From Heterotrichella gracilis (Eukaryota > Sar > Xanthophyceae > Tribonematales > Xanthonemataceae), in the NCBI GenBank assembly GCA_032358255.1, contig JAULBX010030263.1, forward strand, positions 496,001 through 560,000: 64,000 nt of DNA, written 5' to 3'. The notes beneath the pieces were generated by a model that saw only the letters and a program-made list of their open reading frames with translations, had not been told where the DNA came from and ran no database searches. Below are positions 772 through 4,632 of this stretch, in pieces; positions within the stretch are counted from its first letter, which is position 1; each line of letters starts with the position of its first letter. A program made the translations under genes and the position numbers.

Positions 772-863
772 GCGCCTGGCCGTTGATGACCTAACCGTTA
801 CCACACTGAAGCCCTAGGGCATCACCTGAGCGACAACCTTTCACAGTTTCTGAGGCCAGGCGC
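772..863 (+). ncRNA. Box C/D snoRNA 1 of the cluster
   Basis: The outer arms GCGCCTGGCC (772-781) and GGCCAGGCGC (854-863) are perfectly complementary and form a 10-bp terminal stem. Inside lie a C box TGATGA (784-789), a D' box CTGA (806-809), a small hairpin GCCC-TA-GGGC (811-820), a C'-like TGAGCGA (827-833) and a D box CTGA (850-853). The stretch before D' is complementary to GUGGUAACGG, which I recall from plant and algal 18S rRNA (GGUGGUAACGGGUGACGG). This would place a 2'-O-methyl on a G. The stretch before D has only a weak 9-nt candidate in 18S. The architecture is seen directly; the target is from memory. Confidence 0.66.
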
Positions 864-984
864 GCCGCCGCACCAGCAAACCTGCACACACGCCACAGTG
901 CACTGCCCACATGTGTACTCACCGTTGCACCTTGCACTGGCGAAGGCCATATGCAGCTATTTATTCACATCCTACCTCGCCCTG

Positions 985-1075
985 CTGGTTTGTGATGCTA
1001 CCCATTGTTACACACGCTGAGTGCGGCGTACGCCGCACTGTAATGAGGACAACTAGCGGATTTCTCTGAAACCTC
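985..1075 (+). ncRNA. Box C/D snoRNA 2a, first copy of a tandem pair
   Basis: The layout is short terminal stem GGTT (987-990)/AACC (1070-1073), C box GTGATGC (992-998), D' CTGA (1017-1020), perfect hairpin GTGCGGC-GTAC-GCCGCAC (1021-1038), C' TGAGGA (1044-1049) and D CTGA (1066-1069). The guide before D' is complementary to GUGUGUAACAA (11 nt). The guide before D is complementary to AAAUCCGCUA. I recall both in one conserved LSU rRNA stretch, AAUCCGCUAAGGAGUGUGUAACAACUCACC, near the GTPase-associated centre, where the two sites sit about 4 nt apart. This would be a double-guide snoRNA. The last C-box base is C instead of A. Confidence 0.8.
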
Positions 1076-1290
1076 GAGGCTTGCACCTGCACCACCACCA
1101 CCCCTTCCACCCTTCCACCCGGCACCACACCCTGCCACTCTCATCTGCATGCATGTGCACCAACGCCCACACCATCACTTGGTTCAGCTTATCAGCGTAG
1201 TCACTGTCAGGCATTGCAATAGTAACGCGAGGTAGGTAGCCACACTTGCATGTTTTGCAACTCAGAACATTCTGGTTTCTTTGTCCCCCC

Positions 1291-1381
1291 CTGGTTTGTG
1301 ATGCTACCCATTGTTACACACGCTGAGTGCGGCAACAGCCGCACTGTAATGAGGACAACTAGCGGATTTCTCTGAAACCTC
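1291..1381 (+). ncRNA. Box C/D snoRNA 2b, second copy of the tandem pair
   Basis: This 91-bp copy lies 306 bp after the first and matches it except for the four loop bases of the internal hairpin: GTGCGGC-AACA-GCCGCAC at 1327-1344 in place of the GTAC loop. Boxes are C 1298-1304, D' 1323-1326, C' 1350-1355 and D 1372-1375. Both guide stretches are unchanged, so both copies should address the same two LSU rRNA sites. The intervening 1076-1290 is unrelated single-copy sequence. The duplicated unit stops cleanly at the predicted RNA ends, which argues that selection keeps the RNA and not its flanks. Confidence 0.8.
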
Positions 1382-1502
1382 ACGGGGGGTTGCCAACATG
1401 TACCCTTCCGTGCCTTTGATATGCATTCCTTGCACAGCACGTCCCGGTAGAGTGGCTAGAGTATCTCATCAGTACACAGGGTTTTGCATGGTGGCGGTGT
1501 GC

Positions 1503-1591
1503 CTGAGGTGGTGATGCTCAAAAAGCATAGTTCAATTGAAACCGCAGCAACGCTGCTATGAAACCAACCTTCGTTTTTTCCTGAACCTCAG
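1503..1591 (+). ncRNA. Box C/D snoRNA 3, U51/snR39-like guide for LSU Am
   Basis: A perfect 7-bp terminal stem CTGAGGT (1503-1509)/ACCTCAG (1585-1591) encloses a C box GTGATGC (1511-1517), a D box CTGA (1581-1584), a D'-like TTGA (1536-1539), a hairpin GCAGC-AAC-GCTGC (1543-1555) and a C'-like TATGAA. The stretch before D' is complementary to UGAACUAUGC, as in the LSU rRNA segment GGUGAACUAUGCC. The D'+5 rule lands on the A that I recall as yeast 25S Am807, guided by snR39/snR59 and U51. The second guide is U-rich and I found no target for it. The D' box is non-canonical. Confidence 0.66.
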
Positions 1592-1690
1592 CGCCCCGCG
1601 CCACCCCATTTGCCACCCATGCTTTGACAGCCTAGGATCACCCTTTTTTGTTTAATTTAGAGTCAAGGTTTCTAGCGGGTCCATACCCTT

Positions 1691-1769
1691 GGCCTATGAT
1701 GATAAACAAATAGACAAGCATATATCTGACTGGGTGCCTGCACCCCTGAAGATTCTACTTATTGAGGCC
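1691..1769 (+). ncRNA. Box C/D snoRNA 4, U27/snR74-like guide for 18S Am28
   Basis: GGCC (1691-1694) and GGCC (1766-1769) close the RNA. A perfect C box ATGATGA lies at 1696-1702, D' CTGA at 1726-1729, hairpin GGGTGC-CT-GCACCC at 1732-1745, a C'-like TGAAGA at 1747-1752 and a weak D box TTGA at 1762-1765. The guide before D' is complementary for 12 nt to AUAUGCUUGUCU near the 5' end of 18S rRNA. The D'+5 rule points exactly to A28 in yeast numbering, the site methylated by snR74 and animal U27. The weak D box and short stem lower confidence. Only about 9 nt separate C' from D, so a second guide is unlikely. Confidence 0.72.
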
Positions 1770-1997: not shown

Positions 1998-4632
1998 ATG
2001 TTGCAGCGGGCGCAGCGGGCAGCCTCGGGCGCAGCCGCCTCCACCAGCCTGGTCTCACGCCCCACCCCCCTCGCACCCCGCGCGGCGCCGCCCCCCCGCC
2101 CCACCACCCTCCACCGGCTGCGCCACCAGCCGCGCCGCCCCCCCCGCCCCACCCCACCCCAAGCCCCAGTCCGAAACCCTAGGGCAGGGTGCGCGCCCCA
2201 GCTCAATGCCGAGGCGCAGCTGGGCCCCCACCTGGTGCTTGAGTCGGAGCAAGGGGGGGAAATATACGTGTTCGGGGTAGAGCACAAGGAGCACCGGCCC
2301 TACATTGGTGAGCTCATCCTTGAGCGGCGGCCTGCGGCGGTGATTGTTGAGACAGCGCTGACTGCGGAGCATGGGGCGCAGACAGGTGGGGTGGATGACT
2401 GTATTGCCATCGGTTGGTTGGGATTGCTATATTTCCATCGTTTGTTTGGCAGGGTAGGCGGGTGGTAGAGCTGGGTGCATGCGGCTGCATGGGACAAGTA
2501 GTGGCCATGCAGCGCGTTGGGGAGTATCGTCGTGGGTGTTCACATCCTAGAGTGAGGGTCCCTCTCCCTCCAATGACTATTCAAACAGCCCGGGCCACCT
2601 TACTCCCTTACTGCCACTCACCCCCCTCGCCCTCCCTCCTCCCCAGGCAACATCATCAGCGCCCACGACTGGCAGGAGGCCAACAACGCCTCGCTCTACT
2701 TCCGCATGTTCTGCCAGATTGCCGACAAGCTCAATGAGGAACCAGACCCTGTGGCCAGCCGCGTGTGGCAGGATGTGCGTGGGGGGTTCAACGCGGAGCA
2801 GATTGCCTACATCGCTGCCCTGGCGGTGGGTGCCAAGGTTGTGTTTGGGGACCGGCCCAAGGAGATCACCTACAAGCGCCTGCTCAGGGTGCCTACCCTG
2901 GCAGACCTGGATGAAGCCTTTGGGGTGCAGGTGAGGAGAGACCCTAATGTGAACCCTATCAAAACCCTAATGCATTCCCTTGCCTGCTCAGGGTGCCTAC
3001 TCTGGCGGACCTGGATGAAGCCTTTGGGGTGCAGGTGAGGAAACCCCAAGGCAAAGCCTAGCAAAGACCTATTGCAAATCCCAAGGCAAACCCTGTAGGA
3101 TCATGTCTTGTGGCATTCTGCCAGCTGCTAGATGGCAGATGGCTTTGGCAAGCTGGCCAGAATGAGAGTTTGCACGAACACGGGCGCTCCCTACACACAC
3201 CCTAGCCAGACTGTTACCCACAGCAAGTGCTCTCGTGAGCAAACAGGATGAGCCCTAGCCGTACCCTAGCTGGCCCCCTCACCAGGCATCTCCTTTCAAC
3301 CTTTGCGTGCATGACCCAACCCCTCCACCCCCTCCCCTCTCCCAGAGTGCGCTCAACTATGCCGAGCTGACTGGCGCCACCAGCGCTGCGGGTGGTCGTG
3401 ACGTGTGGTCCAACAGCGCTGCTGAGCACATCATGATGCGCGAGAGGGACGCCATCCTGTGCGGGAGCATAGCCAGGGCAGCCAAGGAAACGGGTGAGGG
3501 GTGCTGGGGTTTTGAGGAGGGTGTGGAGTGGGATGGGGCCAGGGACATAACAAGGGTGGTTAGCGAAACGGGTGCATGTGGATGGTTGTGCATGGGGCAG
3601 AAGCAGATTTAATCCGTTCCATTTCTGTAGGCTACCAATAGTACTACCACTACTCAGACCTTACATTCAACGTCTCAATGGAAGTCACTTGACCACACAC
3701 AACCCCAAACCAAATGCTCGATAGAATTAGCGCACGTCAGAACTACCGTACCAGGCGAGAAACGCGGGAATGTCCCACGCCGGGGCCATAATATCCATGT
3801 CCACTCCCGATGTCATTATGTATACTCCCCCCTGCAGGCCCCGACAGCGTTGTGGTGGCTGTGGTTGGCGAGAGCCACCTGCGGGGCATAGACTTCCTGT
3901 GGGAGTCAGGGCTGTGGGAGCGGCTGGTGGCAGGGGAGGATGTTATGAGCGTGCCTGAGGAGGACTTCCACAACGAGACGCCTGAGCAGCTGGCGGTGAA
4001 GCGGGCCATACTGGACAGCGTGGTGCGTGGGCAAGCCCTAGACCCTGGGTGAAGCCTGGCGCCTGTGCGTTGTTTAGGGTGTCTTGAATTGCTGGGGGGT
4101 CGTTGGAAAGCCCATTAAAATTCCTGACAGTGTTGAGTACTTGAGGGCATCTAGTAGGCAGAGGGCATCTAGTACCGCTGTTATCACCAAGCAGGCATTC
4201 TACCACCTCTAACGATGCCTGTTGGGTTATGCCCCTTGGCATCGCGGTCGCGCCTGCATTTCTGGCGTGAGAAGCTCCAGCACCCCTACTAGTTACCTTA
4301 CCTTTAATCAAACCCTAAGCCTGCCCTCCCCCCTCCCCCAGGTGCGCCTCCAGTGCCGCCCCGAGGTGTGTCAGCACATGGCCGCAACCCTGGGCCCCGT
4401 GGCCTCCGACCACATGGACGCCTACATGCTGTGCCACGAGCTGTACGGCACCCCGCGCATGCTCATGGCTGCGCTGCCCAGGGAGGTGCTTGGGCAGGTG
4501 TGCGTGGGGAGGGAGTGCGACATGTGGGATGTGCTGGAGCCCCTGCGGGGGGTGCGGCCGGTGAACGGGGGCAGGGGGTTCTGTGAGGAGCTGATTGTGG
4601 AGCTGCGGGGGCTGCACTTTGAGCTGGGCTGA
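1998..4632 (+). CDS. TraB-family (TraB/PrgY/Tiki-type) protein
   Basis: Five exons read as one frame: 1998-2385, 2647-2930, 3346-3493, 3838-4022 and 4342-4632, giving about 431 residues. The N-terminal 75 residues are rich in Arg, Ala and Pro and look like an organelle leader. The domain then opens with YVFGVEHKEHRPYIGEL and ends exon 1 near AAVIVET. Exon 4 carries VVAVVGESHLRGI. The GVEH and GESH sites match the two GX2H motifs of the TraB fold. Plant members are organelle proteins of poorly known role, and a metal-dependent hydrolase activity is only inferred from Tiki relatives. An in-frame start further upstream is not excluded. Part of exon 2 is tandemly duplicated in intron 2, and exons 4-5 have a broken copy at 11.1-12.0 kb. 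Confidence 0.85.
2878..3041 (+). repeat. Tandem duplication of TraB exon 2 end plus donor (period 104)
   Basis: About 60 bp covering the last part of exon 2 and its GTGAGG donor (2878-2937) recur at 2982-3041 with few changes. The first donor (after 2930) joins in phase with exon 3. The second (after 3034) would be out of phase, so the second copy is most likely intron sequence. Confidence 0.85.

Follow-up and report, generated by a model that had tools for sequence, protein, structure and literature searches.

A cluster of five putative box C/D small nucleolar RNA genes in an alga, with apparent siblings in RNA polymerase I subunit genes

In a 64,000-nt stretch of the Heterotrichella gracilis genome (assembly GCA_032358255.1, contig JAULBX010030263.1, positions 496,001 to 560,000 of the forward strand; hereafter the window), positions 771 to 1769 very probably hold a cluster of five box C/D small nucleolar RNA (snoRNA) genes that would guide 2'-O-methylation of ribosomal RNA (rRNA). 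An earlier note on this DNA had described five same-strand units here, each with a terminal stem, a C box, and a D or D-like box. We scanned for a C box core NTGATGN followed 45 to 120 nt downstream by CTGA or TTGA, with at least four Watson-Crick terminal-stem pairs outside the boxes, and all five units were returned at the positions claimed, on the + strand. Unit 1 (771 to 864) has C box TTGATGA at 783 to 789, D' box CTGA at 806 to 809, D box CTGA at 850 to 853, and an 11-bp terminal stem. Unit 2 (987 to 1073) has its C box at 992 to 998, D' box CTGA at 1017 to 1020, a hairpin at about 1021 to 1038, D box CTGA at 1066 to 1069, and four stem pairs. Unit 3 (1293 to 1379) is a tandem copy of unit 2, also with four stem pairs (C box 1298 to 1304, D' box 1323 to 1326, D box 1372 to 1375). 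Unit 4 (1503 to 1591), of U80/snR60 type, combines C box GTGATGC at 1511 to 1517, D' box TTGA at 1536 to 1539, D box CTGA at 1581 to 1584, and a 7-bp stem. Unit 5 (1691 to 1769), of U27/snR74 type, has C box ATGATGA at 1696 to 1702, D' box CTGA at 1726 to 1729, the variant D box TTGA at 1762 to 1765, and a 4-bp stem. The defining architecture of a box C/D snoRNA, a C and a D box joined by a terminal stem in an RNA of roughly 60 to 120 nt, was thus present in five of five units, with the D variant in unit 5, and five such genes in 1 kb on one strand have the close same-strand spacing of a polycistronic cluster.

The scan rules were drafted after the units had been seen, a bias in the units' favor. 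Outside it, the window yielded no scan candidate on the + strand and two on the - strand. In 2,000 dinucleotide-preserving shuffles of positions 700 to 1800, the mean was 0.036 units and the maximum two; none reached five. Six other stretches of the genome (51.9 kb, both strands) gave 14 candidates, comprising four Rfam C/D matches, a sibling of unit 1, a neighbor of that sibling with a 9-bp stem, and eight without support, which sets the scan background at about 0.15 per kb. Single scan candidates are therefore no proof, but a group of five on the same strand within 1 kb greatly exceeds that background.

The predicted guides place the units on conserved rRNA. We required that the fifth base upstream of the D or D' box meet the target nucleotide (the D+5 register) and counted guides that pair over at least 10 bp. 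The cluster has eight distinct guides, and six of them were computed in this way, on target segments of our own choosing. These segments carry Arabidopsis numbering and come from outside this genome, except that the 18S 5' end also turned up in the assembly, on a contig of doubtful origin. The D' guide of unit 1 pairs over 10 bp with 18S GUGGUAACGG, which by our own reckoning we take to be about G359 in Arabidopsis. Units 2 and 3 pair over 11 bp at 25S U1278 through the D' guide and over 12 bp at 25S A1263 through the D guide. In unit 4, the D' guide forms 10 bp at 25S A826, the target expected of the A826 guide in Rfam family RF00309, and the D guide is in register for 25S G917 yet includes four G-U pairs (-6.7 kcal/mol). 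Unit 5 forms 12 bp at 18S A28 through its D' guide, as members of RF00086 do. Correctly spaced guides to conserved rRNA, which the earlier note had credited to four units, were thus borne out in register and occur in all five. On the 25S segments, the predicted sites of each pair lie 91 and 15 nt apart, equal to the spacings of the Arabidopsis map (917 minus 826 and 1278 minus 1263). 18S A28 and 25S A826, G917, A1263, and U1278 are mapped Arabidopsis methylation sites assigned to U27, U80, and SnoR22 (PMC8053127 Table 1), and SnoR22 belongs to a set of six snoRNAs that each use two guides for sites 11 to 18 nt apart (PMC8053127). Across the genome (68.5 Mb), the exact word TTGTTACACACNCTGA was confined to units 2 and 3 and the exact guide word of unit 5 occurred once; reversed-pattern controls gave zero.

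Family assignment was pursued with the Rfam covariance models, a check that the earlier note had proposed. It succeeded for units 4 and 5 only, and no unit reached a gathering score. Unit 4 scored 32.8 bits against RF00309 (E 0.0054, 2.2 kb searched), short of the gathering score of 41, and is therefore named U80-like; it was the second-best match to this model among 60 genome candidates scored. Unit 5 scored 30.6 bits against RF00086 (E 0.011), short of the gathering score of 52, and is likewise named U27-like; it was the best of 64 genome candidates scored, the next reaching 23.8 bits. For units 2 and 3, the Rfam search returned no snoRNA row even at E 10, and the sole row for unit 1 was SCARNA18 at E 3.2. 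Units 2 and 3 are identical at 86 of 90 positions, and all four differences are the hairpin-loop bases 1028 to 1031; their flanks (30 and 60 nt) are 25 to 33% identical. Boxes and terminal stems, the register of the guides, the matches to two Rfam families, and the uniqueness of the guide words together support the identity of the cluster as predicted from its sequence.

Several observations weigh against this identification. No unit reaches its Rfam gathering score, three of the five have no credible Rfam row, and the D box of unit 5 is a variant. Inspection by eye found no accepted target for the D guides of units 1 and 5. The Arabidopsis table does not contain the unit 1 D' site near G359 (PMC8053127 Table 1), which is possibly a new 18S site. 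The genome's own ribosomal DNA (rDNA) amounts to 67 nt of the 18S 5' end on an AT-rich, possibly contaminant contig; because the rDNA is nearly missing from the assembly, the remaining targets rest on the segments from outside this genome.

Two members of the cluster appear to have siblings in introns of genes for RNA polymerase I subunits. A second U80 copy, on contig C19, scores 49.2 bits against RF00309, above the gathering score, and lies beside exons whose best match among Protein Data Bank (PDB) sequences is RPA2. The sibling of unit 1 (C835:175685-175781, - strand, 83% identical) lies between exon-like stretches of a gene whose best PDB match is RPA1. Another four C/D matches, all sub-threshold, fall in the RPA2 gene. 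On contig C835, a second C/D candidate shares the - strand with the RPA1 gene and lies about 300 nt away from the sibling of unit 1; its C box is at about 5077 of stretch L023, it has a 9-bp terminal stem, and it had no Rfam match. A near-palindromic hairpin elsewhere on C19 (L028:4312-4381) matches the mir-367 model weakly on both strands and is probably a chance inverted repeat.

The two U80 copies seem to divide the targets of the family between them. In the C19 copy, the guide to G917 forms 15 paired positions, one of them G-U (-24.7 kcal/mol), as RF00309 expects, while its guide to A826 is interrupted by a mismatch (position 4) next to a G-U pair (position 3) and gives -10.9 kcal/mol. Unit 4 is the mirror image, with -14.8 kcal/mol for A826 and the weak duplex noted above for G917. 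Reciprocal guide decay after duplication is the simplest reading of these two copies. We regard it as possible, at slightly under an even chance, that U80 function is split between the cluster copy (25S A826) and the RPA2-intron copy (G917) and that, with the unit 1 sibling in an RPA1 intron, guide RNAs would be carried on the same transcripts as the polymerase that synthesizes their target. The split is drawn from two sequences, and it is less clean in the C19 copy, where the A826 duplex is weakened and not lost. Plants and Chlamydomonas usually have multi-copy snoRNA families (PMC7671301 section 24).

An alternative is that the cluster consists of decayed pseudogenes whose function the intronic copies carry. 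The G-U pairs in the D guide of unit 4, the variant D box of unit 5, and the Rfam scores below gathering level would all fit such decay. However, units 2 and 3 are conserved except in the loop, exact guide words reveal no copies of units 2, 3, and 5 elsewhere, and unit 4 is the one U80 copy whose A826 guide is unbroken. We consider pseudogenes very unlikely.

Unit 4 resembles AtU80/snR60 in its D' guide to 25S A826 and in the G917 register of its D guide, but it is strong for A826 alone, the strong G917 guide being found only in the copy beside the RPA2 exons. Unit 5 shares with U27/snR74/SNORD27 (RF00086) a D' guide that meets 18S A28 in the D+5 register and differs in its TTGA D box and in its score. 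The guides of units 2 and 3 reach the same two 25S nucleotides as plant R11, A1263 and U1278, 15 nt apart, but the D' guide and the D guide have traded places compared with the R11 consensus, and the R11 model did not report these units in the window or genome searches. Because the guides stand in the opposite order, we class units 2 and 3 as working like R11 and not as members of that family.

U80 and U27 are adjacent in one cluster here, as in land plants, where rice cluster 43 is U27-U80b and an Arabidopsis cluster is U32.2-U27.2-U80.2 (PMC5122169 section 6). The order in our cluster is U80 then U27, however, and the other members differ. If inherited, the linkage would reach back to the base of green plants. 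Counting against inheritance, U27 has been dated to Mesangiospermae and U80b to Magnoliophyta, although the same paper also describes a tapering of conservation between land plants and algae (PMC5122169). Ostreococcus tauri likewise has polycistronic C/D clusters alongside intronic snoRNAs, a third of the latter in ribosome-biogenesis genes (PMC7671301 section 16); nearly all of its snoRNAs are single copy (PMC7671301), whereas two members of our cluster have siblings elsewhere.

The cluster has no protein gene around it, as the earlier note had stated; it sits in a gap of about 3.1 kb with an opposite-strand gene on one side and a TraB-like gene on the other. The left neighbor, on the - strand, starts at about 8858 of stretch L012 as read by eye, 3,143 nt from the ATG region of the TraB-like gene, and the cluster begins about 1.9 kb from that start. 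The first ATG of the TraB-like gene is at 1998, 228 bp past unit 5, in agreement with the roughly 230 bp given before. The TraB identity itself held up less well. Five single reading frames of the gene matched no Pfam family, and a hand model of its first four exons on the + strand (1998 to 4052; exons 1998-2385, 2647-2930, 3346-3493, and 3838-4052) matched PF01963 at E 0.064, below the Pfam cut-off, leaving the identity weak. The reading frame runs into a stop where the last piece ends, and the hand model may therefore not be complete. By eye, an exon end with its donor site (2881 to 2938) is repeated near-exactly about 104 nt on (2985 to 3042), inside the next modeled intron, possibly as an alternative or duplicated exon.

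We propose that the cluster would be transcribed by RNA polymerase II as one precursor, either from its own promoter or within a 5' untranslated region (5'-UTR) intron of the TraB-like gene, and that the precursor would be cut and trimmed into five RNAs of about 80 to 95 nt. Each would assemble with Snu13, Nop56/58, and fibrillarin, as is general for such RNAs, and then pair with pre-rRNA, unit 5 at 18S A28, unit 4 at 25S A826, units 2 and 3 at 25S U1278 (D') and A1263 (D), and unit 1 at 18S about G359. Two points tell against this scheme: a single precursor is assumed from the same-strand spacing, and TGTAA, an algal poly(A) signal, occurs inside units 2 and 3 (1039 and 1345).

It is plausible, if a little short of probable, that the snoRNAs are freed from a leader intron that is spliced out of the TraB-like transcript. 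The candidate intron (388 to 1882, + strand) runs from donor AG/GTGAGG at 388, the gap's only GTGAG donor-like site, to an acceptor ATGCAG ending at 1882 with CTGAC upstream at 1853 to 1857. It would enclose the cluster. Four acceptor-like sites lie between the cluster and the ATG, and TGTAA is absent from the interval that separates unit 5 from the ATG, where chance would supply only about 0.15 in any case. The title of a Chlamydomonas survey mentions intronic gene clusters. These splice sites are consensus matches, however, and the examined parts of the gap contain two further donor-like sites (-310 and -157) and 14 acceptor-like ones. AGGTGAG occurs at 0.25 per kb on the + strand of the window; at that rate, the roughly 770 nt upstream of unit 1 would contain one by chance about one time in five. 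Moreover, 10 of 12 Ostreococcus tauri clusters are intergenic and two intronic (PMC7671301 section 16).

Such intergenic clusters are common in plants and Ostreococcus. The second possibility, to which we give close to half of our belief, is that this one is likewise an independent polycistron, transcribed from an RNA polymerase II promoter of its own as in land plants and Ostreococcus. The 3.1-kb gap between divergent genes and the distance from the left gene's start speak for it. Upstream there is a telo-box word at -304 and, less than 1 kb from it, a Site II word at -920, and spacing of these two elements within 1 kb has been used as a promoter mark (PMC4660826). However, they lie 1.1 and 1.7 kb from unit 1, with none closer than 1 kb, and such words run at 0.67 and 1.39 per kb across the window and so may be there by chance. 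Of three TATA-like words, none is on the + strand of the gap. We assign equal odds to the leader intron and the independent transcript.

Transcription by RNA polymerase III is hardly credible. In Ostreococcus, polymerase III is believed to make one C/D snoRNA and the MRP RNA (PMC7671301), but a search with bacterial settings found no tRNA in the window, and that polymerase should stop at the six-T runs that start at 1574 within unit 4 and at 1644 ahead of unit 5.

The genome contains 43 Chloroa_b-bind matches, which mark it as that of a photosynthetic eukaryote; we take the host to be a green alga. The assembly seems to include contaminant contigs: C371 (L024) reads by eye as bacterial DNA, and C762 (L011) is AT-rich and ends in the 18S 5' end, beyond which only 5S genes were found as rDNA.

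The cluster itself is of an expected, known type, best read as a U80-like unit, a U27-like unit, a duplicated R11/SnoR22-like unit with exchanged guides, and one unit aimed at a possibly new 18S site. The dual-guide units 2 and 3, with their guides exchanged relative to R11, suggest guide reshuffling or independent origin. The parts worth following are the U80 split and the siblings that cluster members appear to have in introns of RPA1 and RPA2, the two large subunits of RNA polymerase I. The U80 pair offers a testable case in which the two guides of one snoRNA are shared out between a clustered and an intronic paralogue; if this is true, each of the two U80 sites could have its level of modification set independently of the other.
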